From Paracyclopina nana (lineage: Eukaryota > Arthropoda > Copepoda > Cyclopoida > Cyclopettidae): a DNA stretch of 64,000 bases. A program made the translations under genes and the position numbers. Location of the stretch: the NCBI GenBank assembly GCA_019096065.1, contig JAGUCH010000002.1, positions 17,479,363 to 17,543,362 of the forward strand, written 5' to 3'. A model generated the notes under the pieces. That model made no database searches. It was not told the origin of the DNA and saw only the letters and a list, made by a program, of their open reading frames with translations. Positions 2,114-64,000 of the stretch are shown piece after piece. Position 1 is the stretch's first letter, and every line of letters begins with the position of its first letter.

Positions 2114-2127
2114 ATAATATTGCAAGA

Positions 2128-8907: not shown

Positions 8908-8992
8908 AGAAGCAGATTTCAAAATGTAAACAAACATTGTTTTGACCCTCGCGCATTTCGCGACTTTCAAAAAAGCAAAATAATCGGAAAGA

Positions 8993-9865: not shown

Positions 9866-9959
9866 ATAATGCAAGACGTACCTATTTACCAAATGGTCTC
9901 TTTGCCCATGACTTCAATCAAATGAATCTTTCTTCAGATATGCATTTGAAAGGATCCTC

Positions 9960-33137: not shown

Positions 33138-33948
33138 CCTTTCTGGCTACGCGCATGTCCACCTTTCGAAAAAAACGCGCTCAGGTGCAAGGGTAGATTT
33201 TGTCCCATGAACATTTGTCTCATTGTAGCATATTAATAGAAAAGTGCCCAAGGATTTTTGCCGTAACAAGGTGTGTCATTAAATAAAATACTTTAAGAAA
33301 GTGTGTCATGTATATTGTTGCTAGTGAAATGTATCATGGCACTTTGTATCATAGGGAAATGTATCATAGCACATTGTATCATACAATAGCACTTTGTTAT
33401 GTGCTTGGTTGTGACCCAAAGGCTGACCTTCAAGGTCATCTCTTGGCCTTGTTCTAAAATGACCTCATCCTTAGCCTTTCAAAAAATACCAGCAGCTGAT
33501 TACAGCTGATCAAAAGTTTGTTTGAATTACAAAATTTGACTGGCTGATGTTATGTGCTTGGTTGTGACTCAAAGGCTGACCTTCAAGGTCATCTCTTGAC
33601 CTTGTTATGAAATGATCTCATCCTTAGCCTCTCAAAAACCACAAGCAGCTGATTCCAGATACAAAGTGCTATGATACAATTCCTTATGATACATTTTCCT
33701 ATGATACAATGCTATGATACATTTCCCTATGATACATTTCCTTATGATACAAAATGCTATGTATGATACATTTCCTTGTGATACGTTTTCATTGAGACAT
33801 TATCATGCAAATCCAAAAAATAAGTTTTGGAGAAGTGCATATGCTTATAACTGCGGTGGCAATTAAGGAATCTGCGACGCTCTGTTTAGTAGGTTTGAAC
33901 TTATTTGCCTTTTTCATGGAGCTGGACACATGCGCGTAACCTCCTTTC
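33138..33948. mobile_element. Nested palindromic element with GATACA-type arms
   Basis: Outer inverted segments share TACGCGCATGT (33150s and 33920s). Inside, repeated ATGTATCATAG units (33320-33400) face inverted CTATGATACAT units (33660-33785). The centre holds a 153-bp tandem duplication. Non-coding. Confidence 0.6.
33396..33657 (+). repeat. 153-bp tandem duplication with paired AGGTCA half-sites
   Basis: GTTATGTGCTTGG starts at 33396 and again at 33549. Each unit contains the perfect palindrome TGACCTTCAAGGTCA (33424-33438 and 33577-33591), which embeds TCAAGGTCA, the extended half-site of FTZ-F1/ERR-class nuclear receptors. Confidence 0.85.
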
Positions 33949-35034
33949 TTTTCCACTATATTACCTTCAGAAGTCAAATAAGCTAGTTTTCACTATGTGA
34001 GAGATGGGGTCAAAGCTGTTCATTATTTCAGAAAAATGGCCATAATCTTTTCAAGATTTTATGCTATGGGCAGAGATGGGTTTCAATTTGTTTACTTTTT
34101 CCAAGTTTTGGATGTCTTTTATGGCCTGAGAGTGCCTTTAAAAAAAAGATGAAAAATGGGCTTGCTTTTCTTGCCAGTGCGTGAACTGTAGCATGGGCAA
34201 CATAATTTCCAGAAAGCATGTTTTCCATCAATTTTTTCACTGATTGGCTTTTCTCCATTGAAAGTGGCTATTTTTTTAGGGTTTGTTCTGAAGCAGCAAC
34301 TTTGTTTTGAACACTCAAAAAATTGGAAAGACAAAATAGAAGTCTCTGTTTTCAGGTACAATTTGGTCTTGTTGGTCAAGTTAGGTGAAATGAAATTCAA
34401 AAAAGAGCATAGGAAATTACTCCTTGAACTGCCAGGAATGTTACAAGCTTGGTTTTAGTTGCTTACATGGCTTAAAGCAATGAAGTAGTAAATTAGCCTA
34501 AGAACTGAGGGAAACTGAGAAGCGACACGAGAACGCTTATGATTTTGAGGCAAAATCCACCCTCCGTATGCAGCAAATTGCAAAGGTAACTCTTTAAAAT
34601 GCCATATACTCTCTTAATGATCCATTTCATGGATGAAAGAAGAAATTCAGGGATGATCCCACGTGAACAGTTAAGAAATCAAAGCTTTTTTATCTTTGAC
34701 ACTCTTTATTTCGCACATTAATTAACAGCAAAAAGTTTGACATTTGCTTGATGGAAAGGTCCGGAGACAGTTTAAAAGACAGCAAGCCCAACCTAACCTA
34801 GCCATAATAATAGCTATTCCGAACAATGTTGGGTATGCACTTTTGCACTGTTTAATTTTGGTCATTTTTCATTGCAAATAGATGGAAGCCCATAACGTTC
34901 CCCTCTATGCTCGGCTGAATGCTCAGTACATTGATTGGAGTAGGGAACATGTTCTGGAGTGGCACCCCGAAATACACTTGGATGAGGAGGATTACGCACT
35001 GTTCTGTTTCAAATGGGCTAGAACAGTGGAGGGG
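33949..35034. other. Intergenic, no gene recognised
   Basis: AT-rich sequence with one short open frame (34882-35076, starting ATGGAAGCCCATAACG) of unknown nature that runs into the minisatellite at 35035. Nothing else recognised. Confidence 0.45.
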
Positions 35035-36160: not shown

Positions 36161-37108
36161 TCCCAGTGGAGGTGAACAAGAATTGGTTCAAGAGGATGGC
36201 CCCATAACTGGAGGGCAACCATGACTGCCGACAATTCAGACAATTGGGAATTCGGACCAAGCAGGCTCTGGAAATCAGTGGCCCAAATGTCCTGATTGGG
36301 TCCAGTGGTCTAAGAGACCCAGTTTGGGTGTGGTCAAAGTTTGTCCAAATTAATTCAACATTTGGCGCACACCTACCCATTCCTTTCGGCCTCCACGTCG
36401 GCCTCGGAATCTGCAAGTCGGAAGTCCCGCAACCTCGCCGCTCGGCTCACCATCATCTCATTACTTTGCTGTCTTTATTATGATTACTGAATATGCTCAA
36501 CTCAATACAGAATAATCCGCCATTGAAGTAAGAAGTCCAATTTCTTAGACTTTGGCCCAGCGGCCTCTATTTCAGGACTTATAGTGAGAGTATCAAGTCT
36601 TATATAGCGGCCTCATCCTCGGGATCTATCCAGGCCAAGTAGCCCCGTGATTTCGGCCCTATCTTGTCTTGTCATCGGCCTCGACCTCGGCCTCAGCCCT
36701 GACCTCGACCTCAACCATCCCGACCGGGCAGAAACTCCGAGCTCAGCTTTGCAAAGAAGTTTGCGAATTCAAGGACTGCCTCCCAGCGTTGAGCGGGAAG
36801 TCCTTCCAAGAATATTTCCTCAGGCGTGTAAGATACTTTTCAATCTTACCACCACACCGCAGCTTTCCGGTGGGGAAGTAACAAGGAAGCAGCTTCAATT
36901 CCTGGAAGATTGGGACTTATCGGACTCGCCCATTCAGTGGAGCCGAAGCAGCACTCCACAAGTGCTAAAAACCCCACTGACCATCCCTACTGATCAAGAC
37001 AATCCTGGTCCAAGTCAACAGCCGCACGGCAACATCAACTTGGACGGCAATTTGTCACCGAGTCCAAATACTTCAGGAGACAAAGAAGAAAGCCCCAATA
37101 TAACCATC
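36161..37108 (+). other. Region upstream of Bel/Pao gag; LTR not found
   Basis: Expected to hold the 5' LTR and leader of the retrotransposon. The gag frame is open from 36608 without an ATG until 37109. I compared it by eye with the 3' flank (44946-46100) and saw no matching LTR pair, so LTRs are either lost or too diverged to see. Confidence 0.5.
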
Positions 37109-39886: not shown

Positions 39887-39897
39887 TTGCATGTCAT

Positions 39898-40855
39898 GTG
39901 GCCAAATCAAATAAACGTGTTGGCCATGTGACAAAAGCTAATAATGACTTTGGGCAAGGTATTGCATCTGAGCGTGATAAGAAAATGATCATCGTTGCGA
40001 ATCTGATGCGCATCTTCAGACATTTAGAAATGCCAAAACTGACCAAAGTGTTAAGTGCTGTCCAGCGAGGTGAGTCTCTCCTGCCCAAAGATCAAACTGT
40101 ACTTTTTCCAATTGTGCCACTGTACATATCACATCCAGATCAACCAGATAGTGAGCTGTTTGTGAATGGGTTTCTAGACACTGGTAGTGAAATGACATTC
40201 ATCACAGAATCGGTAAAAAATAAACTGAAAATTGTGGGGGTGCCAGACAATCAAAGCTTGCAATTTGTGGGTGCTCACTCCAAAATAAAGAGTGAAAAGG
40301 TAAAAGTGATGCTGAGGCCAGCCAATCCAAAGCCTCCCCCTAAACGGTACTTGCTCACGGTGAACACCATTAACACTTTGCAGCCCACCATGAGGTTGCC
40401 ACCAATCGGGTTGTTGCAATCAAAATATGAACATATAAAACAATGTGACTTTCCTACCTTTGCAGAGGGTGCTCCTGAGATCTTGGTAGGTCAGGATAAC
40501 TTTGATTTGATTTGCAGCCTCAAGACAGTGTGTGGTCCACAACGAGAAGATCCAGTGATACAGCATACCCGACTGGGGCCCACAGTGTCATATTCAGAAA
40601 ACCCCTCCAAGAGTCTGGTGTGCACCTCCCTAAAAAGTGAAAGCAGTGATAATCATTACAGTGCAGAACCACCCCCTTATGAAGCCTTGAAAGTGTTGTA
40701 CGAATTGGAAAAGTACCCTGAAGAACATGTGAAGCCCCTAAGTGTCAATGAGAAGCGAGCTCTAGAGATTCTGGAGCAAACTCGTCAGTTGCCAAGTGGT
40801 GAATACGAAGTGCCTGAACTTTGGCGACCGGGGGAGCCTGACTTCTTATCGAATA
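39898..40855 (+). CDS. Bel/Pao aspartic protease and start of Pol
   Basis: A separate frame after gag, opening at a GTG. The protease active site is FLDTGSEMTFIT (D-T-G). The frame continues to YEVPELWRPGEPDFL, where it is cut by the MITE at 40856. Bel/Pao elements normally fuse gag and pol in one frame. The frame change and lack of a good ATG suggest decay, or a frameshift strategy I cannot prove. Confidence 0.75.
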
Positions 40856-41358
40856 CTTGATTGCTTGCACTGCGCCGATTTAGTTGTCGATGCCGCCACA
40901 GATGGCGTTAGATGCTTGGCGCTCATAAATCCATTTGATTACGTAATGATCTAAACTAAACCTAAATTGCAATTTTGAACTTTTTCGGTAGTGAATTCCT
41001 GAAATTATTACGCCACAGCAAGGAATTGCGAAAAGGGAAAGAAATAACTCCTAAAAGATATCTGCAGTGGCTGAATATTCGTTTGTCTGCATTTATGTGA
41101 GGGAGAATGACAACCTTTTTTATTGTAATTTGAGACCATATTTTGGATTTTTTGCTTTTTTCGGGTCTGATATACTTCAACGGTGTTGGAAAGATTGTAA
41201 TGTAACCTTTTCTTACTATGACTATTTATGAAAGAATCAACAAAAAGCGGAAACTTCTCAGAACCCGCTTCATACGCCAATATTTGGTGTTCGAATTTTA
41301 GCAGCGCCCCCTAGCGCCGCAACTGGGCTTAAAACAAAGCTTACACCAAGCAATCAAG
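40856..41358. mobile_element. MITE (503 bp) inserted in the Bel/Pao pol gene
   Basis: Inverted ends CTTGATTGCTTG and CAAGCAATCAAG flanked by TA on both sides (40854-40855 and 41359-41360), a Tc1/mariner-like signature. It separates the protease frame from the reverse transcriptase frame. Non-coding. It contains AGATGGCG and AGCGCC motifs seen in other elements here. Confidence 0.85.
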
Positions 41359-44300
41359 TATTATTACGAAGTCTTAGTCGACACCCGTGATGTTGAGAAG
41401 AAATTGCTCAGCAGAAACCAAGCAGCTTATGATAAGGCGTGCGCCGAAATCCAACAGTGGTTGGACCTTGGTTTTATCAGGTGTCTCGATCCTGAATTGG
41501 AAAAGATCACTGATGGCAGGTTTCTGGCGTGGCTGTTTGTCAACAGGCTCGATAAGCCATCAATGCCCGTGCGGGTTGTCTTTGATGGAACCCGTAAGTC
41601 CAAGGACGGAAGTCGTTGAACGATGCTCTGCTGCCCGGCCCCAAACTCCAAACTGATTGCTACGATATCATGCTTCTTGCAAGAGAAAAGCCTGTGTGCT
41701 TCACCAGTGACATCAGCAAGATGTACTTACGGTTCAAGCTGAGGCCCGAAGACCGAAAGTACCATCGTTTTGTGTGGCAGGACAAGGTCTATGAGTTCAT
41801 GTCAGTCCCATTTGGAACTACGGCAGCCCGATGCATGGCACTGTACTGTGTTCAGAAGCATGCGGAATTGTACATAGAAAAGTACCCCGTAGCGTACAGA
41901 CTCATTAAGACCTGCCTTTATGTCGACGACTTCATCGCAAGTGTTGAGAGTACTGAGGAATTTGTGGAAGTCTCCAAACAACTCTTGGAAATCATGGATG
42001 CTGCCAAGTTGCCATTGCGCAAATGGACATGTTCAGATGCCGCAGGGCTCAACCACATTCCACCAGAATGGTGTGCTTCGATGTACCACATCAAGGAAGA
42101 AGATGCTGAAACAACAAAAGCTTTGGGGATGCACATCGACCAAACGACTGACACTATCTTCTTTGAAAAACCCTCGTACGAACCATTCAAGAACATTCTG
42201 CTAACCTTACGAACCATGGTCAAGTACACCCCAAGATTGTTTGACTTATTAGGCTTGGTCAACCCGGTCACATTGCCTGCCAAATTGTTGATCCAAGCGG
42301 CGTGCGCCATAAGGTCGTTACTCAAGATCAATTGGGACACAGATCTTTCCAAAATCGGGACAGAAGAAGCCAATGAAATTGTAACAAAGTGGAACATGTA
42401 TGTCCAAGATCTGGATGACATCGGGGGTATCTCAATCCCACGAGCACTTCGACACAAGGCTGCTAAGAAGAAATATCTTCATGTCATGTCAGATGCAAGC
42501 GACGTAGCATATGCGGCGTGCGCCTACCTTGTCTGCCACTATGAAGATGCAGAGACCACATCAACTCTGGTGACCTCAAGAATGAAGTTGTGTCCCTTGA
42601 ATGAAATCCGATCCATTGCAGAAAAAGAGTTACTTGGAGCAGTTCTAGGAGCAAGAATTGCATGTCACCTGCACAGACTTTATGAAGGCATTGATGATGT
42701 CTTTTTATGGACAGACTCCAGAGTGGTTCTGCATTGGATTTCAAAACCTGCCAGAAATTGGAGAGTCTTCGTCGGAAGACGTGCGTCAGAAATCTTTCAA
42801 ACGATGCACCAATGGTCATGGCGTCACATCAAGGGCACCTTGAACGCTTCGGACAAAGCCACTCCTGGTGTCACGGCGAAAGAGCTAGCCACAGACCAGG
42901 CCTGGTTCAGTGGCCCAGCTTTCATCAAAGATTCGCCAGAAAACTATCCCGCTGAAAACATCGACCTCACCGATGACGACAAAGCAATTGTGGAGAAATC
43001 TGCGAAAAAGTCGTTAATAAATTCAGCCACGCAAGAATTTATTAAAGCGGGGGAGGGCATCATCCCAGACCATCTGAAATTGACAAAGCGGATCAAGATG
43101 AGATGGAAAAGTTGGAGGTCCACCGAGTTCATGTTTGACATAGCCAAGTTCAAATATGGCTACCTGGTCAGGAAGTTGGCTTTCTTCATGAGATGGAGGA
43201 ACAAGGCAATTGACAAGGAGATGATCGTGGGCAGCGGTGAACCTGGTCCCATGGAGATCACCCATGCGGAAAGTGCACTGGCAGGCATCTTTCAGCAGCA
43301 GGAATTTGCTGAGGAGCTCGACTACCTGTACAGGAACAAAAAGTGGCCTCAGTCATCACGGCTAGCTTCGCTCAATGTGTTTATTGGCAAGCATGGTGAT
43401 CTGCGCATGAGGGGGCGGACTTACAAAGGTGAGCCCACCTGGATTGGGCGAAATCGACTGGTGATCCCCGAAAAGTTGGCTGTACAGCTGTGTGAGCATC
43501 TTCACCAGCAAATAGGGCATGGCTATGGCCCAGTCACCATGGCAGCGACTCTCCAGACCAGGTACTATGTTCGCAGTGCTAAGGCTATCTTTCAGAGTGT
43601 CACCCAAAGTTGCTGGCTGTGTGCGATCGCAAGAGCAAAGGTGGTAAGACAAGTCATGGCTCCATTGCCGTCAAACTTCTTTGTGTCAGCTGAGCAGATG
43701 TTTCCGTTCAGAAGGATCTCGCTGGACTATGCTGGCCCCTTTGTTGTGAAATATGGCAGAGGCAGCATCAAGGTTTATGTGCTCATAGCTCATTGCCAAG
43801 ATAGCAAAGCTATCCATGCCGAAGTGACCCCTGACTTGACGGCGACCGCCCTAAAAAATGCTCTGGATCGAATGATCGCGAGGACTGGAGTGCCTCAGCA
43901 GATTCGCAGTGATCAAGGGGCAAGCTTGAAAAAGATTCGTCTTGAGATATACAATAATCCAAGACACAAAGAGTTGACTGAAAAGCTTGACTCCATGGAC
44001 TGGACTGAAGTGAGGAAAAGTGCATCGGAAATTGGTGTGCAAGATTGGCGACTTGCCCCCCCGTACGGGCCCAACTGTAACGGTTTGGCTGAGAGCTCCA
44101 TAAAGAACTGGAAGAGAGCTCTTTACAAGATCTGCGGGGAATCTGTGTTGACATTTGACGAGTTCTCCACCTTGATCAAAAGGGCGGAGAGTATGGTCAA
44201 TGCCAGGCCGATCGGCAACATAGATGGGCATGTTTTGACGCCCAATCACTTCCTCACGAGGGGGCCTGGAGGAGACCTAATCCCCAGCATCGACCCCAAG

Positions 44301-44945
44301 GACATTGAGACTTTGCCGAAAAGGTACTCTTTGATGGAGAAGTGTCTGCATCACCTGTGGGAGTTTTATATCCAAGGATGGCTGTTGCGCATCCAGAAAT
44401 TGCCAAAGTGGCAGAACTTTGTGCGATCACTCAAAGTCGGCGATCCGGTGATCATGATTGATCCCAGGAAGTATGCCAAGAGAAGCAACTGGCGGCTGGC
44501 CATTGTGGACAAGGTGTACACCAATGCAGATGGCATGGTTCGTCGAGTAATTGTCAGATATGCGCTCACCATGAAGGACAAGCAAGGGAAAGAGTTTGTA
44601 GCCTTTCATTACAAGGAGCGCCCAATCCAGTTCGTAATTCCGATGCCAATCTTAGCCGAAGAGGAAGCAGCTGAATTAGTGCCGCCTTTAAAAATCAGAA
44701 AAGGCACACTAATGGAAGAACCAGTCTCAGGGGCCCTGCCTTTTGAAGGACCCTCCACTGAGCCACATAAACCTGGCGAACTAGTCGACGATTGGGAAGA
44801 AGACCTGGAAGATGCATTCGAGCAAGCCGATGATGGAGAAAAAGACCTCTTGATCCACCTGGACCAAGGCCTAGATTTCTTGCATGGTCCTATTGCCTCG
44901 CGTACGAGCTCCCAGAGAAAGACTCCCCAGCCTCATCTAAATTGA
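41359..44945 (+). pseudogene. Bel/Pao Pol: reverse transcriptase, RNase H, integrase (frameshifted)
   Basis: Coding resumes after the MITE (YYEVLVDTRDVEKKLL) and runs to about 41613, where a one-base shift moves it to the frame open from 41616 to 44945. Reverse transcriptase: FDGTRKS, SDISKMYLRF, FGTTAARCM and catalytic YVDD (near 41920). RNase H: MSDASDVAYAA. Integrase: an H-H-C-C zinc region (QIGHGYG through CWLC), then catalytic D (SLDYAGPF), D (IRSDQGA) and E (CNGLAESS). The C-terminal DUF5641-like region (SLKVGDPVIM) closes Pol. Catalytic residues are intact, so the insertion is fairly young. It is still disabled by the MITE and the frameshift. Confidence 0.9.
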
Positions 44946-48465: not shown

Positions 48466-48607
48466 TTAGTGTTCATATTTGGTACTGTTGGCTAGATTAT
48501 TGTGATAGTTAGCAACTCAGACTGTAAGAGAGAGAGAGTAGAGTGTGAGTGTTATGTAAAACTGTAACTTGTGCGACCAAAATACTGAAGTTTTGTACAT
48601 GAGTTCA

Positions 48608-48849
48608 GGTTAGGTTAGGTTAGGTTAGGTTAGGTTAGGTTAGGTTAGGTTAGGTTAGGTTAGGTTAGGTTAGGTTAGGTTAGGTTAGGTTAGGTTAGGT
48701 TAGGTTAGGTTAGGTTAGGTTAGGTTAGGTTAGGTTAGGTTAGGTTAGGTTAGGTTAGGTTAGGTTAGGTTAGGTTAGGTTAGGTTAGGTTAGGTTAGGT
48801 TAGGTTAGGTTAGGTTAGGTTAGGTTAGGTTAGGTTAGGTTAGGTTAGG
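48608..48849 (+). repeat. (TTAGG)n telomere-type array
   Basis: About 48 uninterrupted copies of TTAGG on the plus strand. TTAGG is the ancestral arthropod telomere repeat. It starts just after the env fragment and gives way to mixed sequence (AGGATAAGTTAACCTAAGG). It may be an interstitial telomere block in a subtelomere. Confidence 0.97.
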
Positions 48850-50100
48850 ATAAGTTAACCTAAGGATGATCCTCGTCTCTTCCGTAGCCTGGGGCCCTGG
48901 GGGCTTGCCCTCTTGAAAAACTTCATTAATACAAAAAAACCCGATTTTCATGTAGGTAATTTGATATTTTATGGTCCTTCACGATTCACCTTTGATTTCG
49001 GCCGCTAGGTTAAAAAAACCGTTTTACTCTATGTTTCATCTGTAAAAGGTGTCTCTTCCGCCCATGGGCGGGACGGGGTGTGCCCTCTCGGCCCACCCTT
49101 TATATCCTAGCCCATTCATGACACGCCCTACAACTTCTATTAGTGAAATTTTTTTGCCCACCTTCTAGATTGGCCCGCTCGCTTCATAAGGATCATCGTT
49201 TTAACCCGATTTTTCACTTTTTGGCCTCCATTTTCAACTTTGAGGCCAGGGTTGACCTCATTTTCATAGGTAGAATGGGCTGAAAAAAAAACACCAAATT
49301 GATTTCAAACTCTGGGAACCCGATGGCGTTGGTCCCGTTCCAAGAGGGCAAAGATTTGGGGAGCTAGGGGCGGAAGAGACAGTGAAACCTTGCAGGCTGA
49401 CCCCGCCAAGATTCAGAAGGAGTGGCCCAGGGGCCACACCCTCTCATTCTTATTATGAAACTTGGGCTCTGGGAACCCGAATCAGTTGTCAAAATCGGGT
49501 TAGGACCCGATTTGGGGGTACTTTATTAGTGAACTGCACTTTTGGCAGGAAGCCACCCCCCAGGCTGAGGTCAACTCCTACGTGGAGTGGCCTATCGGGT
49601 CGGCTGAGGTGTCCTCGGACAGGTTTTCAGGGGTGGGGAATCCAAATCTGCAGTCAGATTGGCGCTAGCTCCACTCCTAGTACCCGCAGGGTCCCAAATG
49701 GGGTACCCTATGTACTCCAACTACCTCTTGGGGGGGTCTGACCCCAATGACCCATAAAATAAAAGTTGTTCAGTTTGGCCTCAGCTTTCATTTGCCGTAT
49801 CGCGCGACCCGATCGGACCGGAAATAGCGATACTGGGCGGTCGCGGGCCATGTGGGCGCGCGGGTTTTGGGGCAAGTTTGGGCCCTGGGGGTAACTCGGG
49901 GGTCCTTTGAGATATCGGGACGTGCTCGGTGTCCTCTATAGGGTTTTTGGGGGTGCTGAACCCGATTCTGGACCCCGATTTGGGCTACGAGGACCCGGTC
50001 CGTGACCCCGACTTGGGGAGTCACCCCAAAACTTTAACCCGCCCTAGATGGCTTATTTTTCACCCAAACTCGATGAAACTTTGGATTCTGGCTCCCAGCA
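48850..50100. other. GC-richer subtelomeric sequence, no gene recognised
   Basis: Repeated phrases such as GGAACCCGA, ACCCGATTTGGGG and TCTTCCGCCCATGGGCGGGA. No credible coding frame. Confidence 0.5.
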
Positions 50101-50104
50101 CTTT

Positions 50105-53100
50105 CCTTTATGGAGGCTACTCAGCACAGTCAGCTGATTTCAAAACTGCTGAGTCGTTTTCTCAGCATTCGGTAGGGCCGGAACGGTAAGAGATATCAAA
50201 AAACTTATTTAGCAAAAGTTGCTCAGCACCCCAAAATATGTAAACATACCGAATCTCAGCATCTCAGTAAAGTGACTCAGCACCCTAAAATGGCAAGATA
50301 CAGCAAAGTCATTGAAGCAAAAGTTGTTGCAAATAAATCACTGAGTTCAGAACTGGTCTTGTTTTTGAGCTAGGCCGCTTTTGACGAAATCGTCGAAAAA
50401 TCCCTAAGGCTCTGGCCTTGGGAAACTCGACTTTTTCCCAAGTCATTTTATGGACTTGACTATGATATGCAAAGTGGTAGAGGAGCTCAGCACGACTTCA
50501 TAACAGTAAATGGATGTGAGCTGAGACGCTCCGTTGCTGAGATATTGATTCGCAAAGTTCATTGTAGTGAATAATGTCTCTTCCAAGGATTGTGGGCCAA
50601 CGGCTTGCCCTCTTGCCAAGCCCTTTGATACATGAATACATAAAGTCATTCTCTAGAACTTTTATAAGTAAACTTTTTGATTCCATCTTTGAATTTTGGA
50701 ATTGGCTCAGCACAAAAAGTGCGAGTTCGAGCGGGAGTAAATGCTGAGATATGAAAATGACTTTGAAGCAAAAGTTGTAGAGAATGAGCTCACGACTTCA
50801 AAACAGTAAATTGAAGTGAGCTGAGACGCTCCGTTGCGGAGATATCGCGGGTCGAAGTTTACAACTATAGACTTTGTTTACTTTTGCATTTTAGCTCGAA
50901 TTTGGCCAGTTTTTGGGGCTAAAAGTGCCGGGAAAGCGGTAATTCTTGCAGCCAAGCTTCCTTTTACTGTTTTCTTGGACTTTTTCATGAATTTGAAGAC
51001 TTTATTGCATTCTAGAGTGGAATTTTCCGCGAAAAACGGCTCGCGTCAAATTTCGAGCGATCAAATTAAAGTCGGTCTACGGCCTTTGACACCTTGAAAC
51101 CTTGTAGAGGAGGTTGCCCTGACTTCATAGCATCAAATTGTGGCAAAATATCTGGTCTAGAACCGGAGATATCGCGCGCCAAAGTTTTCGCTTAATAGCA
51201 GCCTAACTGCTGAGCTTTACGGAGACTTCTAGCTGAGCTATCTTGTTTACTATTTAGCAAAAAGTGTTCAGTTTGGTCTCCCATTTCCAAAACTGTAAAG
51301 AGTTCCAAAATCGGGGCATTTTTCGAATTTTCGCATGCTTAACGAGTTTTAAGTACAGTGCTATGTACTACGTAGTACATAGAGCTTTTCGTTAAGAAGT
51401 AGCGGGCGCAAAAGTGGAGATATCAATTTTGCTATTAAGTAAAAGTAGTTTCTGCTGAGTCTCTGGATTCCATAGGTGTAAACAGTTTTAAAATCGGATA
51501 AATACAAGCGGAGATAGCGCTGAGCGCTCAGCAGTACAGAACTTCGTAAACGAAAATGCGCTGAGGGACTTTGAGTACTTATAGAAGTGATAGAGAATGT
51601 CAAGACGAATCTCTGGGTGCAAAAAGAAGTGATCTGAGGCTCTCCGTTGCTGAGATATAGCTCCCCGAAGTTTACTACTATAGACTTTGTTTACTTTTCA
51701 TTTTGGGCACGAATTTGGCCTGTTTTGGGGCCTAAAACTACTCGAAATGCGGCGATTCTTAGTGCCAAGTCTTCTACTTATTGTTTTCTTGGACTTTTTC
51801 ATGAATTTGATGACTTTATTGCATTCTACAGTGGAATTTTCCGCGAAAAACGGATCGCGTCAAATTTTCGCCGATCAAATTAAAGTCGGTCTACGGCCTT
51901 TGATTACTAAAAGACCTTGTAGAGCTGATTGCCCTGACTTCATAGCATCAAATTGGGGCAAAATATCTGGTCTAGAACCGGAGATATCGCGCGCCAAAGT
52001 TTACCGCTTAATAGCATCCGTCTGCTGAGTTTTACGGAGACAAGGAGCTGAGATATCTTGTTTACTATGTAGCAAAAAGTGTTCAGTTTGGTCTCCCATT
52101 TCCAAAACTGTAAATAGATCCAAAATCGGAGCAATTTTCGAATTTTCGTATTGAATAGACGGATGAAACGCAGCTCTATGTACTACGTAGTACATAGGGC
52201 TTTTCGTTAAGAAGTAGAGCCAGTAAAAGTTGACTTATCAAGTTTGCTATGAAATGAAAAAATGATCTGCTGAGTCTCAGGATTCCATTGGTATAAATAG
52301 TTTTAAAATCGGACAATAACGAGCTGAGATAGCGCTGAGCGCCGGTACCGCTAAATAGCAGCCTAGCGGGTAAGTTTTACGGAGACTGAAAGCGGAGATG
52401 CTGAGTTGCTTACTTATAAAAGTGATAGAGAATGTCAAGACGAATCTCTGGGTGCAAAAAGAAGTGATCTGAGACTCTCCGTTGCTGAGATATCGCGCGC
52501 CGAAGTTTACTATATAGAGACTTTGTTTACTTTTGCATTTGGGCCCGAATTCGGCTTGTTTTGGGGCTTAAAACTGCCCAAAATGGGTCAATTCTTCCTC
52601 CTAAGCTTCCTCTTATTGTTTTCTTGGACTTTTTCATGAATTTGAAGACTTTATTGCATTCTAAAGTGGAATTTTCCGCGAAAAACGGCTCGCGTCAAAT
52701 TTCGAGCGATCAAATTAAAGTCGGTCTACGGTCTTTGACACCTTGAAACCTTGTAGAGGAGGTTGCCCTGACTTCATAGCATCAAATTGTGGCAAAATAT
52801 CTGGTCTAGAACCGGAGATATCGCGCGCCAAAGTTTTCGCTTAATAGAAGCCTAACTGCTGAGCTTTACGGAGACTTCTAGCGGAGCTATCTTGTTTACT
52901 ATTTAGCAAAAAGTGTTCAGTTTGGTCTCCCATTTCCAAAACTGTAAAGAGGTCCAAAATCGGAGCATTTTTCGAATTTTCGTATTGAATAGACGGATGA
53001 AACGCAGCTCTATGTACTACGTACTACATAGGGCTTTTCGTTAAGAGGTAGCGCCAGTAAAAGTGGAGATATGAACTTTGCTATGAAATGAAAAAATGAT

Positions 53101-54439
53101 CTGCTGAGTCTCAGGATTCCACAGAAGTAAACAGTTTTAAAATCGGACAACTACGAGCTGAGATAGCGCTGAGCGCTCAGCAGTACAGAACCAGCGGACT
53201 TGGAAGTGGACTTGTGGACTTGGCTTTGAAGTACAAAGTGGTAGAGGAGCTCAGCACGACTTCAGAACAGTAAATTGATCCGAGCTGTGACGCTCCGTTG
53301 CTGAGATATCGATCGTCAAAGTTTACTGCTGCTGAGCCCCCTGAAAAAGTGCTCATTTTCGCTGAGTTCTCCGATTGGGCTGAGACTTGGCACAAATGAT
53401 CTACTAGATGCAATAAGTCAGCACACCAAAGGATTTGGCGCTCAGCAGCTCAGCAGCGGAGTTATTCAGCCAGATATGCTCAGCATAAAACCCTGCTCAG
53501 CAGAGAACCAGCTGAGCTGTGATAAAAACTGATGACACTTTCTAATAGCCCATAAGACAGTGATCATTTATCAGTAAAGACATTTCATATATCTCATCAT
53601 TCTGCTGAGTTCTGATGCAAAAACCTGAAAATGGGGTCAAATGGGAGCCTGAATAACTCAGCTGCTGAGCGTTTTTGGGCATATGTTTACTTGGGATTAT
53701 CTGCTCAGAATGTGACGGAGAACAATCGTACCAAGTTTCTGCTCGATCCGAGCACTTTGAAAAATCGGTCACTTTTTCTAAGGCTACCCCCTTAGGAAAA
53801 CTCGACTTTTTGGCAAGTCATTTTATGGACTTGACTATGAACCAAGACTTGTAGAGGAGCTCGGCCTGACTTCAAAACACTAAATTGAAGTGTGCTGAGA
53901 CGCTCCGTTGCTGAGATATTGGGGGTCAAAGTGTGGAAATCGGGTCCCAGAAGGAGCGGTCTGTCAGAAAATTTCATAAAATAAGAAATGATGGGGACAT
54001 CAAGGGCTACTTGCATATCAAATTTCAGCTCTGTAGCTCAACATTTAGAGTTGCTGAGTCGGTTGTTTACTTCGCTGAGACTCGGTCAAAATGATGTTTG
54101 ATTTATTTGCAACAACTTTTGCTTCAATGACTTTGCTGTATCTTGTCATTTTGTGTTGCTGAGTCGGTTGTTTACTTTGCTGAGACTCGGTCAAAATGAT
54201 GTTTGATTTATTTGCAAACACTTTTGCTTCAATGACTTTGCTGTATTTGCTCATTTTGGATTGCTGAGTCACTTGGCTGAGATGCTGAGACTTGGTATAT
54301 AAGGGTATTTTGGGGTGCTGAGCAACTTTTGCTAAATAAGTTTTTTGATATCTCTCACAGTTTCCGAGATACAGAGTGCTGAGAAAGTGACTCAGCAGTT
54401 TTGAAATCAGCTGACTGTGCTGAGTTGGCTCCATAAAGG
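50105..54439. repeat. GCTGAG-rich satellite block bounded by inverted arms
   Basis: Arms 50105-50342 and 54204-54439 are inverted copies (roughly 80% by eye), both carrying CAGCTGATTTCAAAACTGCT and AAACTTATTTAGCAAAAGTT. A second partial right arm lies at about 54093-54170. Between them, units of about 810-840 bp start near 50822, 51630 and 52471, each with CGCTCCGTTGC or CTCTCCGTTGC followed by GAGATAT, CATGAATTTGA-GACTTTATTGC, CCGCGAAAAACGG and GAACCGGAGATATCGCGCGCC. The hexamer GCTGAG/CTCAGC is strikingly frequent throughout. No coding. Confidence 0.85.
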
Positions 54440-55334
54440 ACTCAGCTGTATCTCAAAAGTCAGTTTTGGGCTCGTTCCGAGTGAAAATCTGCGAAAAAAA
54501 CGGGGTCCATATTTGGGTGGCCCCCCCCAAACGGGGTCAAAATCGGGGTCAGGGGGCCAAAGTTAGGGTCTATGTAAGGTATAGTGGGTCAGTAATGTGC
54601 TCAGTAGTTAAGAAACGGGGTATATAGTGGGGGCGGGGCCCAAAATCGGAGTCAAAATCGTCCTAGGCCCCCAGGGTCATCTGGGGGTTGCGGTAGGTTG
54701 CGGTAGGTCGCGGTAGGGTAATGGGCGAATCGCTGAGCGATTCCCAATGGGTGAAAAGTTAAAGTCCCTGTCTCTAGTCGTTTGCTCCGTTAGCTGGGGT
54801 GGGGCTAACTTTGGGCCCGATTGGTGCAGAGAGCCATTTCAAACGCCAGTGCGTAGCCATGACCCTAAGGAACCTGGGGTACCAGCCCCGGGGCCCCTAG
54901 GCCCCTGGGGGCGGGGCCAGGGGCGTTAGTGCAGTTGTCTGCAGTTTGGTACAAAGAATCCATAGTAGTATATATATACCCTATGTAGTGATTGAGGCTC
55001 TCGGAAAACCTTATGTAGTAAAGCCAGAGTTGGTGCTGGAGCAAAGTGGTCATAGGGAAAGTTGTTCATCTTGATGAGGGGCATCTTTTTTATTAATGAA
55101 ATTTTTCACCTAGGCCTAAGGCCTGGGAGCTTGGGCCTAACCTAACTTTGACACGTATTGAGGGCTGCCCCAAAAACGTACACGTGGAATCAGCTGATTT
55201 TTGGTGAAGAGGTAGCCAGGGGCAAGGTCTACCACCATGCCAAAAATCAGCTTCCAGTTACGTCGTTTACTTGCAAGCATACCCAGGATCATCATGGATC
55301 ATCTTGAAGATCATCTTTTTATGTAATGGGTAAC
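54440..55334. other. Subtelomeric sequence, no gene recognised
   Basis: GC-rich, with tandem GGTTGCGGTAGG-like and GGGGTC runs. CCTAACCTAA occurs near 55135. No supportable feature. Confidence 0.5.
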
Positions 55335-55423
55335 TTACGTTAGGTTAGGTTAAAGAAAGTTAGGTTAAGGCCAGGTTACAAGAAGAAGTTAGTTAGGTTA
55401 GGCCAGGCTTAGAAGCCAGAAGC
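55335..55423 (+). repeat. Transition zone mixing TTAGG, AAGAAG and CCAGG units
   Basis: Contains GTTAGGTTAGGTT, AAGTTAGGTTAAGGCCAGGTT, ACAAGAAGAAGTTAG, GTTAGGTTAGGCCAGG and AGAAGCCAGAAGCCAGG. Telomere-type units, AGAAG units and CCAGG units are interleaved within 90 bp. Confidence 0.9.
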
Positions 55424-58400
55424 CAGGCCAGGCCAGGCCAGGCCAGGCCAGGCCAGGGCCAGGCCAGGCCAGCCAGGCCAGGCCAGGCCAGGCCAGGCCA
55501 GGCCAGGCCAGGCCAGGCCAGGCCAGGCCAGCCAGCCAGGCCAGGCCAGGCCAGGCCAGGCCAGGCCAGGCCAGGCCAGGCCAGGCCAGGCCAGGCCAGG
55601 CCAGGCCAGGCCAGGCCAGGCCAGGCCAGGCCAGGCCAGGCCAGGCCAGGCCAGGCCAGGCCAGGCCAGGCCAGGCCAGGCCAGGCCAGGGCCAGGCCAG
55701 GCCAGGCCAGGCCAGGCCAGGCCAGGCCAGGCCAGGCCAGGCCAGGCCAGGCCAGGCCAGGCCAGGCCAGGCCAGGCCAGGCCAGGCCAGGCCAGGCCAG
55801 GCCAGGCCAGGCCAGGCCAGGCCAGGCCAGGCCAGGCCAGGCCAGGCCAGGCCAGGCCAGGCCAGGCCAGGCCAGGCCAGGCCAGGCCAGGCCAGGCCAG
55901 GCCAGGCCAGGCCAGGCCAGGCCAGGCCAGGCCAGGCCAGGCCAGGCCAGGCCAGGCCAGGCCAGGCCAGGCCAGGCCAGGCCAGGCCAGGCCAGGCCAG
56001 GCCAGGCCAGGCCAGGCCAGGCCAGGCCAGGCCAGGCCAGGCCAGGCCAGGCCAGGCCAGGGCCAGGCCAGGCCAGGCCAGGCCAGGCCAGGCCAGGCCA
56101 GGCCAGGCCAGGCCAGGCCAGGCCAGGCCAGGCCAGGCCAGGCCAGGCCAGGCCAGGCCAGGCCAGGCCAGGCCAGGCCAGGCCAGGCCAGGCCAGGCCA
56201 GGCCAGGCCAGGCCAGGCCAGGCCAGGCCAGGCCAGGCCAGGCCAGGCCAGGCCAGCCAGGCCAGGCCAGGCCAGGCCAGGCCAGGCCAGGCCAGGCCAG
56301 GCCAGGCCAGGCCAGGCCAGGCCAGGCCAGGCCAGGCCAGGCCAGGCCAGGCCAGGCCAGGCCAGGCCAGGCCAGGCCAGGCCAGGCCAGGCCAGGCCAG
56401 GCCAGGCCAGGCCAGGCCAGGCCAGGCCAGGCCAGGCCAGGCCAGGCCAGGCCAGGCCAGGCCAGGCCAGGCCAGGCCAGGCCAGGCCAGGCCAGGCCAG
56501 GCCAGGCCAGGCCAGGCCAGGCCAGGCCAGGCCAGGCCAGGCCAGGCCAGGCCAGGCCAGGCCAGGCCAGGCCAGGCCAGGCCAGGCCAGGCCAGGCCAG
56601 GCCAGGCCAGGCCAGGCCAGGCCAGGCCAGGCCAGGCCAGGCCAGGCCAGGCCAGGCCAGGCCAGGCCAGGCCAGGCCAGGCCAGGCCAGGCCAGGCCAG
56701 GCCAGGCCAGGCCAGGCCAGGCCAGGCCAGGCCAGGCCAGGCCAGGCCAGGCCAGGCCAGGCCAGGCCAGGCCAGGCCAGGCCAGGCCAGGCCAGGCCAG
56801 GCCAGGCCAGGCCAGGCCAGGCCAGGCCAGGCCAGGCCAGGCCAGGCCAGGCCAGGCCAGGCCAGGCCAGGCCAGGCCAGGCCAGGCCAGGCCAGGCCAG
56901 GCCAGGCCAGGCCAGGCCAGGCCAGGCCAGGCCAGGCCAGGCCAGGCCAGGCCAGGCCAGGCCAGGCCAGGCCAGGCCAGGCCAGGCCAGGCCAGGCCAG
57001 GCCAGGCCAGGCCAGGCCAGGCCAGGCCAGGCCAGGCCAGGCCAGGCCAGGCCAGGCCAGGCCAGGCCAGGCCAGGCCAGGCCAGGCCAGGCCAGGCCAG
57101 GCCAGGCCAGGCCAGGCCAGGCCAGGCCAGGCCAGGCCAGGCCAGGCCAGGCCAGGCCAGGCCAGGCCAGGCCAGGCCAGGCCAGGCCAGGCCAGGCCAG
57201 GCCAGGCCAGGCCAGGCCAGGCCAGGCCAGGCCAGGCCAGGCCAGGCCAGGCCAGGCCAGGCCAGGCCAGGCCAGGCCAGGCCAGGCCAGGCCAGGCCAG
57301 GCCAGGCCAGGCCAGGCCAGGCCAGGCCAGGCCAGGCCAGGCCAGGCCAGGCCAGGCCAGGCCAGGCCAGGCCAGGCCAGGCCAGGCCAGGCCAGGCCAG
57401 GCCAGGCCAGGCCAGGCCAGAAGCCAGGCCAGGCCAGGCCAGGCCAGGCCAGGCCAGGCCAGGCCAGGCCAGGCCAGGCCAGGCCAGGCCAGGCCAGGCC
57501 AGGCCAGGCCAGGCCAGGCCAGGCCAGGCCAGGCCAGGCCAGGCCAGGCCAGGCCAGGCCAGGCCAGGCCAGGCCAGGCCAGGCCAGGCCAGGCCAGGCC
57601 AGGCCAGGCCAGGCCAGGCCAGGCCAGGCCAGGCCAGGCCAGGCCAGGCCAGGCCAGGCCAGGCCAGGCCAGGCCAGGCCAGGCCAGGCCAGGCCAGGCC
57701 AGGCCAGGCCAGGCCAGGCCAGGCCAGGCCAGGCCAGGCCAGGCCAGGCCAGGCCAGGCCAGGCCAGGCCAGGCCAGGCCAGGCCAGGCCAGGCCAGGCC
57801 AGGCCAGGCCAGGCCAGGCCAGGCCAGGCCAGGCCAGGCCAGGCCAGGCCAGGCCAGGCCAGGCCAGGCCAGGCCAGGCCAGGCCAGGCCAGGCCAGGCC
57901 AGGCCAGGCCAGGCCAGGCCAGGCCAGGCCAGGCCAGGCCAGGCCAGGCCAGGCCAGGCCAGGCCAGGCCAGGCCAGGCCAGGCCAGGCCAGGCCAGGCC
58001 AGGCCAGGCCAGGCCAGGCCAGGCCAGGCCAGGCCAGGCCAGGCCAGGCCAGGCCAGGCCAGGCCAGGCCAGGCCAGGCCAGGCCAGGCCAGGCCAGGCC
58101 AGGCCAGGCCAGGCCAGGCCAGGCCAGGCCAGGCCAGGCCAGGCCAGGCCAGGCCAGGCCAGGCCAGGCCAGGCCAGGCCAGGCCAGGCCAGGCCAGGCC
58201 AGGCCAGGCCAGGCCAGGCCAGGCCAGGCCAGGCCAGGCCAGGCCAGGCCAGGCCAGGCCAGGCCAGGCCAGGCCAGGCCAGGCCAGGCCAGGCCAGGCC
58301 AGGCCAGGCCAGGCCAGGCCAGGCCAGGCCAGGCCAGGCCAGGCCAGGCCAGGCCAGGCCAGGCCAGGCCAGGCCAGGCCAGGCCAGGCCAGGCCAGGCC

Positions 58401-61400
58401 AGGCCAGGCCAGGCCAGGCCAGGCCAGGCCAGGCCAGGCCAGGCCAGGCCAGGCCAGGCCAGGCCAGGCCAGGCCAGGCCAGGCCAGGCCAGGCCAGGCC
58501 AGGCCAGGCCAGGCCAGGCCAGGCCAGGCCAGGCCAGGCCAGGCCAGGCCAGGCCAGGCCAGGCCAGGCCAGGCCAGGCCAGGCCAGGCCAGGCCAGGCC
58601 AGGCCAGGCCAGGCCAGGCCAGGCCAGGCCAGGCCAGGCCAGGCCAGGCCAGGCCAGGCCAGGCCAGGCCAGGCCAGGCCAGGCCAGGCCAGGCCAGGCC
58701 AGGCCAGGCCAGGCCAGGCCAGGCCAGGCCAGGCCAGGCCAGGCCAGGCCAGGCCAGGCCAGGGCCAGGCCAGGCCAGGCCAGGCCAGGCCAGGCCAGGC
58801 CAGGCCAGGCCAGGCCAGGCCAGGCCAGGCCAGGCCAGGCCAGGCCAGGCCAGGCCAGGCCAGGCCAGGCCAGGCCAGGCCAGGCCAGGCCAGGCCAGGC
58901 CAGGCCAGGCCAGGCCAGGCCAGGCCAGGCCAGGCCAGGCCAGGCCAGGCCAGGCCAGGCCAGGCCAGGCCAGGCCAGGCCAGGCCAGGCCAGGCCAGGC
59001 CAGGCCAGGCCAGGCCAGGCCAGGCCAGGCCAGGCCAGGCCAGGCCAGGCCAGGCCAGGCCAGGCCAGGCCAGGCCAGGCCAGGCCAGGCCAGGCCAGGC
59101 CAGGCCAGGCCAGGCCAGGCCAGGCCAGGCCAGGCCAGGCCAGGCCAGGCCAGGCCAGGCCAGGCCAGGCCAGGCCAGGCCAGGCCAGGCCAGGCCAGGC
59201 CAGGCCAGGCCAGGCCAGGCCAGGCCAGGCCAGGCCAGGCCAGGCCAGGCCAGGCCAGGCCAGGCCAGGCCAGGCCAGGCCAGGCCAGGCCAGGCCAGGC
59301 CAGGCCAGGCCAGGCCAGGCCAGGCCAGGCCAGGCCAGGCCAGGCCAGGCCAGGCCAGGCCAGGCCAGGCCAGGCCAGGCCAGGCCAGGCCAGGCCAGGC
59401 CAGGCCAGGCCAGGCCAGGCCAGGCCAGGCCAGGCCAGGCCAGGCCAGGCCAGGCCAGGCCAGGCCAGGCCAGGCCAGGCCAGGCCAGGCCAGGCCAGGC
59501 CAGGCCAGGCCAGGCCAGGCCAGGCCAGGCCAGGCCAGGCCAGGCCAGGCCAGGCCAGGCCAGGCCAGGCCAGGCCAGGCCAGGCCAGCCAGGCCAGGCC
59601 AGGCCAGGCCAGGCCAGGCCAGGCCAGGCCAGGCCAGGCCAGGCCAGGCCAGGCCAGGCCAGGCCAGGCCAGGCCAGGCCAGGCCAGGCCAGGCCAGGCC
59701 AGGCCAGGCCAGGCCAGGCCAGGCCAGGCCAGGCCAGGCCAGGCCAGGCCAGGCCAGGCCAGGCCAGGCCAGGCCAGGCCAGGCCAGGCCAGGCCAGGCC
59801 AGGCCAGGCCAGGCCAGGCCAGGCCAGGCCAGGCCAGGCCAGGCCAGGCCAGGCCAGGCCAGGCCAGGCCAGGCCAGGCCAGGCCAGGCTAGGCCAGGCC
59901 AGGCCAGGCCAGGCCAGGCCAGGCCAGGCCAGGCCAGGCCAGGCCAGGCCAGGCCAGGCCAGGCCAGGCCAGGCCAGGCCAGGCCAGGCCAGGCCAGGCC
60001 AGGCCAGGCCAGGCCAGGCCAGGCCAGGCCAGGCCAGGCCAGGCCAGGCCAGGCCAGGCCAGGCCAGGCCAGGCCAGGCCAGGCCAGGCCAGGCCAGGCC
60101 AGGCCAGGCCAGGCCAGGCCAGGCCAGGCCAGGCCAGGCCAGGCCAGGCCAGGCCAGGCCAGGCCAGGCCAGGCCAGGCCAGGCCAGGCCAGGCCAGGCC
60201 AGGCCAGGCCAGGCCAGGCCAGGCCAGGCCAGGCCAGGCCAGGCCAGGCCAGGCCAGGCCAGGCCAGGCCAGGCCAGGCCAGGCCAGGCCAGGCCAGGCC
60301 AGGCCAGGCCAGGCCAGGCCAGGCCAGGCCAGGCCAGGCCAGGCCAGGCCAGGCCAGGCCAGGCCAGGCCAGGCCAGGCCAGGCCAGGCCAGGCCAGGCC
60401 AGGCCAGGCCAGGCCAGGCCAGGCCAGGCCAGGCCAGGCCAGCCAGGCCAGGCCAGGCCAGGCCAGGCCAGGCCAGGCCAGGCCAGGCCAGGCCAGGCCA
60501 GGCCAGGCCAGGCCAGGCCAGGCCAGGCCAGGCCAGGCCAGGCCAGGCCAGGCCAGGCCAGGCCAGGCCAGGCCAGGCCAGGCCAGGCCAGGCCAGGCCA
60601 GGCCAGGCCAGGCCAGGCCAGGCCAGGCCAGGCCAGGCCAGGCCAGGCCAGGCCAGGCCAGGCCAGGCCAGGCCAGGCCAGGCCAGGCCAGGCCAGGCCA
60701 GGCCAGGCCAGGCCAGGCCAGGCCAGGCCAGGCCAGGCCAGGCCAGGCCAGGCCAGGCCAGGCCAGGCCAGGCCAGGCCAGGCCAGGCCAGGCCAGGCCA
60801 GGCCAGGCCAGGCCAGGCCAGGCCAGGCCAGGCCAGGCCAGGCCAGGCCAGGCCAGGCCAGGCCAGGCCAGGCCAGGCCAGGCCAGGCCAGGCCAGGCCA
60901 GGCCAGGCCAGGCCAGGCCAGGCCAGGCCAGGCCAGGCCAGGCCAGGCCAGGCCAGGCCAGGCCAGGCCAGGCCAGGCCAGGCCAGGCCAGGCCAGGCCA
61001 GGCCAGGCCAGGCCAGGCCAGGCCAGGCCAGGCCAGGCCAGGCCAGGCCAGGCCAGGCCAGGCCAGGCCAGGCCAGGCCAGGCCAGGCCAGGCCAGGCCA
61101 GGCCAGGCCAGGCCAGGCCAGGCCAGGCCAGGCCAGGCCAGGCCAGGCCAGGCCAGGCCAGGCCAGGCCAGGCCAGGCCAGGCCAGGCCAGGCCAGGCCA
61201 GGCCAGGCCAGGCCAGGCCAGGCCAGGCCAGGCCAGGCCAGGCCAGGCCAGGCCAGGCCAGGCCAGGCCAGGCCAGGCCAGGCCAGGCCAGGCCAGGCCA
61301 GGCCAGGCCAGGCCAGGCCAGGCCAGGCCAGGCCAGGCCAGGCCAGGCCAGGCCAGGCCAGGCCAGGCCAGGCCAGGCCAGGCCAGGCCAGGCCAGGCCA

Positions 61401-63964
61401 GGCCAGGCCAGGCCAGGCCAGGCCAGGCCAGGCCAGGCCAGGCCAGGCCAGGCCAGGCCAGGCCAGGCCAGGCCAGGCCAGGCCAGGCCAGGCCAGGCCA
61501 GGCCAGGCCAGGCCAGGCCAGGCCAGGCCAGGCCAGGCCAGGCCAGGCCAGGCCAGGCCAGGCCAGGCCAGGCCAGGCCAGCCAGGCCAGGCCAGGCCAG
61601 GCCAGGCCAGGCCAGGCCAGGCCAGGCCAGGCCAGGCCAGGCCAGGCCAGGCCAGGCCAGGCCAGGCCAGGCCAGGCCAGGCCAGGCCAGGCCAGGCCGA
61701 AGAAGAAAGGCCAGGCCAGGCCAGGCCAGGCCAGGCCAGGCCAGGCCAGGCCAGGCCAGGCCAGGCCAGGCCAGGCCAGGCCAGGCCAGGCCAGGCCAGG
61801 CCAGGCCAGGCCAGGCCAGGCCAGGCCAGGCCAGAAGCCAGGCCAGGCCAGGCCAGGCCAGGCCAGGCCAGGCCAGGCCAGGCCAGGCCAGGCCAGGCCA
61901 GGCCAGGCCAGGCCAGGCCAGGCCAGGCCAGGCCAGCCAGGCCAGGCCAGGCCAGGCCAGGCCAGGCCAGGCCAGGCCAGGCCAGGCCAGGCCAGGCCAG
62001 GCCAGGCCAGGCCAGGCCAGGCCAGGCCAGGCCAGGCCAGGCCAGGCCAGGCCAGGCCAGGCCAGGCCAGGCCAGGCCAGGCCAGGCCAGGCCAGGCCAG
62101 GCCAGGCCAGGCCAGGCCAGGCCAGGCCAGGCCAGGCCAGGCCAGGCCAGGCCAGGCCAGGCCAGGCCAGGCCAGGCCAGGCCAGGCCAGGCCAGGCCAG
62201 GCCAGGCCAGGCCAGGCCAGGCCAGGCCAGGCCAGGCCAGGCCAGGCCAGGCCAGGCCAGGCCAGGCCAGGCCAGGCCAGGCCAGGCCAGGCCAGGCCAG
62301 GCCAGGCCAGGCCAGGCCAGGCCAGGCCAGGCCAGGCCAGGCCAGGCCAGGCCAGGCCAGGCCAGGCCAGGCCAGGCCAGGCCAGGCCAGGCCAGGCCAG
62401 GCCAGGCCAGGCCAGGCCAGGCCAGGCCAGGCCAGGCCAGGCCAGGCCAGGCCAGGCCAGGCCAGGCCAGGCCAGGCCAGGCCAGGCCAGGCCAGGCCAG
62501 GCCAGGCCAGGCCAGGCCAGGCCAGGCCAGGCCAGGCCAGGCCAGGCCAGGCCAGGCCAGGCCAGGCCAGGCCAGGCCAGGCCAGGCCAGGCCAGGCCAG
62601 GCCAGGCCAGGCCAGGCCAGGCCAGGCCAGGCCAGGCCAGGCCAGGCCAGGCCAGGCCAGGCCAGGCCAGGCCAGGCCAGGCCAGGCCAGGCCAGGCCAG
62701 GCCAGGCCAGGCCAGGCCAGGCCAGGCCAGGCCAGGCCAGGCCAGGCCAGGCCAGGCCAGGCCAGGCCAGGCCAGGCCAGGCCAGGCCAGCCAGCCAGGC
62801 CAGGCCAGGCCAGGCCAGGCCAGGCCAGGCCAGGCCAGGCCAGGCCAGGCCAGGCCAGGCCAGGCCAGGCCAGGCCAGGCCAGGCCAGGCCAGGCCAGGC
62901 CAGGCCAGGCCAGCCAGCCAGGCCAGGCCAGGCCAGGCCAGGCCAGGCCAGGCCAGGCCAGGCCAGGCCAGGCCAGGCCAGGCCAGGCCAGGCCAGGCCA
63001 GGCCAGGCCAGGCCAGGCCAGGCCAGGCCAGGCCAGGCCAGGCCAGGCCAGGCCAGGCCAGGCCAGGCCAGGCCAGGCCAGGCCAGGCCAGGCCAGGCCA
63101 GGCCAGGCCAGGCCAGGCCAGGCCAGGCCAGGCCAGGCCAGGCCAGGCCAGGCCAGGCCAGGCCAGGCCAGGCCAGGCCAGGCCAGGCCAGGCCAGGCCA
63201 GGCCAGGCCAGGCCAGGCCAGGCCAGGCCAGGCCAGGCCAGGCCAGGCCAGGCCAGGCCAGGCCAGGCCAGGCCAGGCCAGGCCAGGCCAGGCCAGGCCA
63301 GGCCAGGCCAGGCCAGGCCAGGCCAGGCCAGGCCAGGCCAGGCCAGGCCAGGCCAGGCCAGGCCAGGCCAGGCCAGGCCAGGCCAGGCCAGGCCAGGCCA
63401 GGCCAGGCCAGGCCAGGCCAGTCAGCCAGGCCAGGCCAGGCCAGGCCAGGCCAGGCCAGGCCAGGCCAGGCCAGGCCAGGCCAGGCCAGGCCAGGCCAGG
63501 CCAGGCCAGGCCAGGCCAGGCCAGGCCAGGCCAGGCCAGGCCAGGCCAGGCCAGGCCAGGCCAGGCCAGGCCAGGCCAGGCCAGGCCAGGCCAGGCCAGG
63601 CCAGGCCAGGCCAGGCCAGGCCAGGCCAGGCCAGGCCAGGCCAGGCCAGGCCAGGCCAGGCCAGGCCAGGCCAGGCCAGGCCAGGCCAGGCCAGGCCAGG
63701 CCAGGCCAGGCCAGGCCAGGCCAGGCCAGGCCAGGCCAGGCCAGGCCAGGCCAGGCCAGGCCAGGCCAGGCCAGGCCAGGCCAGGCCAGGCCAGGCCAGG
63801 CCAGGCCAGGCCAGGCCAGGCCAGGCCAGGCCAGGCCAGGCCAGGCCAGGCCAGGCCAGGCCAGGCCAGGCCAGGCCAGGCCAGGCCAGGCCAGGCCAGG
63901 CCAGGCCAGGCCAGGCCAGGCCAGGCCAGGCCAGGCCAGGCCAGGCCAGGCCAGGCCAGGCCAG
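55424..63964 (+). repeat. (CCAGG)n tract, ~8.5 kb, probable miscalled telomere
   Basis: About 1,700 copies of CCAGG (GGCCA) with very few interruptions: one-base insertions (GGGCCA), deletions (CCAGCCAGG), AGAAG-type breaks near 57420, 61699 (CCGAAGAAGAAAGG) and 61833, a GGCTAGG near 59888 and a GTCAG near 63421. The unit equals TTAGG with TT read as CC. All three forward frames read the same peptide repeat (PGQAR), because 5 and 3 share no factor. No coding role is proposed. Confidence 0.95.
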
Positions 63965-64000
63965 GTTGTGTTGTGCCAGGCCAGTTGTGCTTGTGCCAGG
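63965..64000 (+). other. Terminal TTGTG-rich edge of the repeat tract
   Basis: The tract ends in TTGTGTTGTGCC and TTGTGCTTGTGCC interleaved with CCAGG. It may be degraded basecalling at a read or contig end, or genuine variant repeats. The window stops here. Confidence 0.4.

Follow-up and report, generated by a model that had tools for sequence, protein, structure and literature searches.

The window, by which we mean the whole 64,000 bp stretch analysed here, is C2:17479363-17543362, in an assembly of 91.95 Mb made up of 10 contigs (C1 to C10, with L and R for their left and right ends). Its predicted domains include a TRM10-type methyltransferase, an ATP synthase, a protein kinase and an adaptin, and they agree with a nuclear animal contig. 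The TRMT10A-like frame at 8993-9862 reaches up to 64% identity among the best 120 of its 431 relatives; the named relatives among the matches listed stand at 43-51% identity, and presumably all of these are arthropods. A 40-bp tandem repeat occupies 2134-2903, with 8.8 copies at 2551-2903 according to TRF and a unit in the opposite orientation, found by eye, at 2134-2213. Further along, a BEL/Pao-type retrotransposon (36608-44945) with Pao peptidase, reverse transcriptase and integrase zinc-binding domains sits in the subtelomere. The features that concern us most fill the outer part of the window (Table 1).

Table 1. Features of the outer part of the window, in window coordinates.
Feature	Position	Strand	Basis
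Interstitial (TTAGG)50, correctly spelled, inner border of the subtelomeric unit	48607..48857	+	TRF, sequence
Subtelomeric unit, near copies at C2-left, C5-left and C3-left	48858..55339	+	sequence comparison
105-bp tandem repeat inside the subtelomeric unit	54042..54296	+	TRF
Array onset, interleaved TTAGG, AAGAAG-type and CCAGG, preceded by the flank ...GGGTAACTTACG	55340..55422	+	sequence
Terminal array, spelled (CCAGG)n in the assembly and interpreted as a miscalled telomere of (TTAGG)n	55423..64000	+	TRF, unit census, contig end, flank homology
AGAAG-type break, CCAGAAG	57417..57423	+	unit census
AGAAG-type break, CCGAAGAAGAAAGG	61697	+	unit census
AGAAG-type break, same as at 57417	61831	+	unit census
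TTGTG-type breaks at the tip (CACAA on the C strand)	63966..63995	+	sequence, unit census

The window extends to the right end of its contig: base 64000 is the final base of C2 (17543362). The initial annotation had supposed that a TTAGG-type strand runs here to something like a chromosome end, and the G-rich strand does read 5' to 3' outward to the contig end, which is the polarity of a telomere. The terminal tract is 8.6 kb long, close to the (CCAGG)n of about 8.5 kb that had been proposed, and TRF describes it as a period-5 repeat at 55422-63965 with 1710.2 copies and 99% matches. Exact CCAGG units cover 8470 of the 8671 bp (97.7%) of 55330-64000, in 23 maximal runs separated by 22 breaks. 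Neither CCAGGCCAGG nor its reverse complement occurs in the first 55 kb of the window, so chance is excluded as a source of the CCAGG tract. The printed unit is not that of a (TTAGG)n telomere; from 55423 on it is CCAGG and not TTAGG. What we claim is that the printed sequence of this tract is not that of the molecule.

The first TTAGG of the onset lies a few bases from the start at 55335 given in the initial annotation. Two TTAGG units are followed by a mixture of TTAGG, AAGAAG-type and CCAGG units, the interleaving that had been described there, and within the tract TTAGG is confined to this onset; the run beyond it is nearly pure CCAGG. Breaks of the AGAAG type do recur as had been claimed, but they are sparse, being limited to the onset and the three places listed in Table 1. 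The TTGTG breaks at the tip are a second type, absent from that annotation. It was right to place a true TTAGG array and a satellite just inside the tract; these are the 50-copy array and the 105-bp repeat that TRF reports.

Our census of contig ends covered, on the left, 20 kb of each contig from C2 to C10 and the initial 14.2 kb of C1, and on the right at least 2 kb of every contig. A telomere-type array stands at 16 of the 20 ends, and all 16 have one polarity. Twelve are called TTAGG (C1R, C2L, C3R, C5L, C5R, C6L, C6R, C7L, C7R, C8L, C9L and C9R) and four are called CCAGG: C1L (12.7 kb), C2R (8.6 kb), C4R (9.7 kb, after a start in TTAGG) and C10R (8.9 kb). We are less sure that the arrays of C8L (3.7 kb) and C9L (0.5 kb) are terminal since they lie just inward of 5 kb and 10 kb of N respectively. 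No telomere-type array was found at C4L, C8R or C10L in the end sequence examined (20 kb on the left, at least 2 kb on the right). C3L also falls outside the 16 array-bearing ends. This contig opens at most 3 bases from the outer border of a subtelomeric copy (C3:1-390), where an array would be expected to start, and to judge from the sequence it looks as if its telomere was trimmed off. Compared with the canonical arthropod (TTAGG)n telomere, the tract at C2R has the period, the polarity, the flank and the length class of the twelve TTAGG-called ends, and differs in that the assembly prints CCAGG.

The assembly has another peculiarity near its ends. The N runs near the left ends (C2:10001-12500, C6:5001-10000, C6:12501-20000, C7:12501-20000, C8:1-5000 and C9:1-10000) have their bounds at multiples of 2500 within the sequence examined, and three contigs end at such multiples (C5 at 7647500, C8 at 6825000 and C9 at 6305000). 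This looks like cutting at fixed bins.

The flank of the tract occurs in the assembly with both spellings behind it. The window is 99.46% identical to C2-left over 6436 bp (48958-55378) and 98.7% identical to C5-left over 4043 bp (51371-55401), and its subtelomeric unit is 97.5% identical to C3-left over 4550 bp. A search of the assembly with the outermost 391 bp of the window's subtelomere gave 21 matches, and 7 of these, the window's own copy included, were at 100%. The flank ending in ...GGGTAACTTACG leads into TTAGG at C2L, at C5L and at C3:5.48 kb; in the window and at C3:12.86 kb it leads into a few TTAGG units and then into CCAGG. Behind the same flank the one unit takes the place of the other, as a miscall would at the same loci. 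The flank at C10:258500-259392 matches C6:7153614-7154507 with 96.3% identity over 895 bp. In C6 it is followed by TTAGG, in C10 by five TTAGG units and then CCAGG.

The subtelomeric unit is about 6.5-8 kb long, carries short TTAGG arrays at its borders and is repeated at several chromosome ends. Copies lie at 48607-55339 of the window, C2:13.6-27.6 kb, C3:1-36 kb and C5:16-23 kb, and some are identical over the outer 391 bp. C10, a contig of 0.27 Mb, has a flank that resembles an inner subtelomeric copy of C6-right, and could represent a chromosome end left unplaced or an alternative haplotype.

The motif (CCAGG)4 has 6363 matches in the assembly's 91.95 Mb, 4489 forward and 1874 reverse, against 11001 for (TTAGG)4, and every one of the (CCAGG)4 matches can be placed. 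The forward matches are at C2R (1634), C4R (1503) and C10R (1352), and the reverse matches are at C1L (1658), C3:12.0-12.9 kb (96) and C2:33.9-34.7 kb (120). At this stringency (CCAGG)n is therefore confined to six telomere-type arrays, and the two of these that are interstitial contain TTAGG too. An assembly search for (CCAGG)9 followed by (TTAGG)2 gave 0 matches; CCAGG runs that start after a base other than G gave 6, only at C1L, C4R and C10R. Deep in the interior of C1 (13052919-13055364) short TTAGG blocks recur every 0.7-0.9 kb, as if they were part of an interior satellite.

Within the arrays the change from TT to CC affects whole units. At both edges of the array at C2:33.8-34.8 kb, for 82 bp at the start and 90 bp at the end of the sequence examined, the units are CCTAA; its core (33882-34712) is mostly CCTGG with CCTAA units scattered through it. 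The 198 units of the array comprise 148 CCAGG, 50 TTAGG and 0 one-base intermediates; by calculation, independent variation at the two positions should have produced about 75 intermediates. Elsewhere such intermediates number 1 beside 1677 units in the window array, 2 beside 135 in the C3 array, 9 beside 1394 in C1L:1-10000, 14 beside 293 in C4R and 8 beside 232 in C10R, the last two counted over the final 2 kb of each contig. Their rarity argues against point decay. It does not argue against every model with a real repeat, since block-wise homogenisation of two real units could leave few intermediates as well. That intermediates do occur in the window, the C3 array, C1L, C4R and C10R counts against the miscall explanation.

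The edges of the arrays are of two kinds. Clean TTAGG opens the arrays of C4R (100 bp), C1L (60 bp) and C10R (25 bp) and gives way immediately to CCAGG; the edges in the window and the C3 array are ragged. The clean starts could be the work of short-read polishing, limited to what the unique flank could anchor. The purity of exact runs goes from 1.00 to 0.37 and back to 0.99 along C1L, and from 0.99 to about 0.65 along C10R.

The noise in the two kinds of arrays is also different. Our counts cover 59,680 bp of the 12 TTAGG ends and 37,387 bp of the 4 CCAGG ends, with C1L and C2L each counted over 1-10000, C6L over 1-5000, and the final 2 kb used at each of the right TTAGG ends. The TTAGG ends hold 8654 TTAGG, 1547 TTGGG, 236 TTAGAG, 13 AGAAG, 9 CCAGG and 0 AAGAAG. 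The CCAGG ends hold 6544 CCAGG, 240 AGAAG, 200 AAGAAG, 40 TTAGG, 0 TTGGG and 0 TTAGAG. Each kind of end has the error classes of one strand and they do not mix; this is plainest in AAGAAG (0 vs 200) and TTGGG (1547 vs 0). The counterpart that the G strand should show, (TTAAA)4, has 0 matches in the assembly. This absence of a TTAAAA-type error counts against the miscall explanation, although only weakly, since the published artefact is an error of reads and the assembly is a consensus. The last 2 kb of C5R (C5:7645501-7647500) are clean TTAGG and TTGGG, with 52 TTGGG per kb and no other type of noise counted. TTGGG may, at least in part, be a real variant unit.

We believe, with a probability of about 0.95, that C2R is an ordinary (TTAGG)n telomere misspelled CCAGG by nanopore-type base calling. 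The initial annotation had proposed a miscalled TTAGG telomere, and the flanks, the interstitial arrays, the error spectra and the full (CCAGG)4 tally all support that proposal. The underlying molecule would be a (TTAGG)n telomere of at least 8.6 kb, and the consensus at C2R appears to be based on nanopore reads of the C-rich strand. In those reads (CCTAA)n would have been called (CCTGG)n, interrupted by CTTCT and CACAA bursts; on this strand the three would be read back as CCAGG, AGAAG and TTGTG. Ends with a consensus from the G strand would be spelled TTAGG with TTGGG and TTAGAG noise. The cause would be that (CCTAA)n and (CCTGG)n give alike pore currents, as has been published for the six-base unit; the platform, the strand that was read and this likeness for a five-base unit are all suggested by analogy. 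The interstitial arrays also raise a difficulty. They lie within contigs where reads of both strands are expected, yet they are miscalled, which counts against the miscall explanation. CCTGG is a CCWGG (Dcm) site, and base callers may have learned such sites from E. coli DNA. The term dcm is absent from PMC9414165.

The portion of that paper available to us (Tan et al. 2022, Genome Biol 23:180; PMC9414165) describes an error of this kind. Base calling of C-strand reads from TTAGGG telomeres yields CCCTGG and CTTCTT, these miscalls are absent from HiFi reads of the same sample, and the current of TTAGGG is close to those of TTGGGG, TTAGAG and TTAAGG. The likeness to our case is considerable. 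In both, the C-strand unit has AA replaced by GG (CCCTAA gives CCCTGG in their case and CCTAA gives CCTGG in ours), the AAGAAG at our CCAGG ends is the mirror of the CTTCTT bursts, and the TTGGG and TTAGAG noise of our TTAGG-called ends corresponds to the G-strand look-alikes TTGGGG and TTAGAG. The differences are that the unit here has five bases, that we see it in a finished assembly and not in reads, that no TTAAA counterpart is present, and that there is an extra CACAA/TTGTG class, which was not found in the available portion of PMC9414165. In that same portion the words insect and arthropod have 0 occurrences, and the telomere table of a moth assembly (PMC11074257), as far as it was available, has TTAGG and CCTAA spellings only. 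A limited literature search found no five-base version of the artefact in print. The CCAGG tract is, in our opinion, the five-base version of the artefact published for TTAGGG and TTTAGGG telomeres.

It can be argued instead that the tract is real, and that genuine (CCAGG)n stands at some ends and (TTAGG)n at others, for example because of block-wise unit exchange or a second telomere template. The CCAGG stretches are kilobases long and 99% pure, and the intermediate-free alternation in C2:33.8-34.8 kb could reflect unit homogenisation. The case for real repeats of this type has been made for Chenopodium, where 'derivative' repeats TTTAAAA and (C)CCTGGG occur beside canonical units in R9.4 nanopore reads; the authors cite Tan et al. 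and, in the part of their paper available to us, argue from FISH and fibre-FISH that the derivatives are physically real (PMC10521516). CCAGG belongs to the same substitution class, and their argument is evidence by analogy against the miscall reading. However, the Chenopodium signal is described as dispersed, with CCTGGG mainly in pericentromeric heterochromatin, whereas CCAGG here forms terminal tracts on contigs and otherwise occurs in two subterminal arrays. According to the same part of that paper TTTAAAA and CCTGGG never share an array, something that strand-specific miscalling would also predict. A real repeat must further contend with near-identical subtelomeres that precede TTAGG at some ends but CCAGG in the window, and it needs extra assumptions to account for the abrupt switches after clean TTAGG at C4R, C1L and C10R and for AAGAAG bursts that are restricted to CCAGG tracts. 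We consider it very improbable.

It is more improbable still that the assembler or polisher alone turned correct reads into CCAGG. The block-wise changes of purity in C1L and C10R do resemble shifts in consensus depth, but reads that were all TTAGG would not give a consensus of CCAGG, AAGAAG and TTGTG. An effect of this sort fits better into the miscall explanation, as its second step.

Published opinion is divided on whether such repeats are artefacts (PMC9414165) or real (PMC10521516), and this assembly bears on that dispute. Its near-identical paralogous flanks with both spellings offer a test beyond the reach of the Chenopodium reads, and the comparison of flanks, together with the one strand class of errors at each end, is a test that can be made from the assembly alone. 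Any nanopore assembly of a TTAGG animal can be checked cheaply by searching contig starts for (CCTGG)n accompanied by CTTCT and contig ends for (CCAGG)n accompanied by AGAAG. A count based on the motif would score as missing the four of 16 telomere-type ends that are spelled CCAGG, and a survey of repeats could report CCAGG as a novel satellite or telomere variant. The CCAGG tract is a warning about assemblies; its motif is new, the kind of artefact is known, and it is not new biology.
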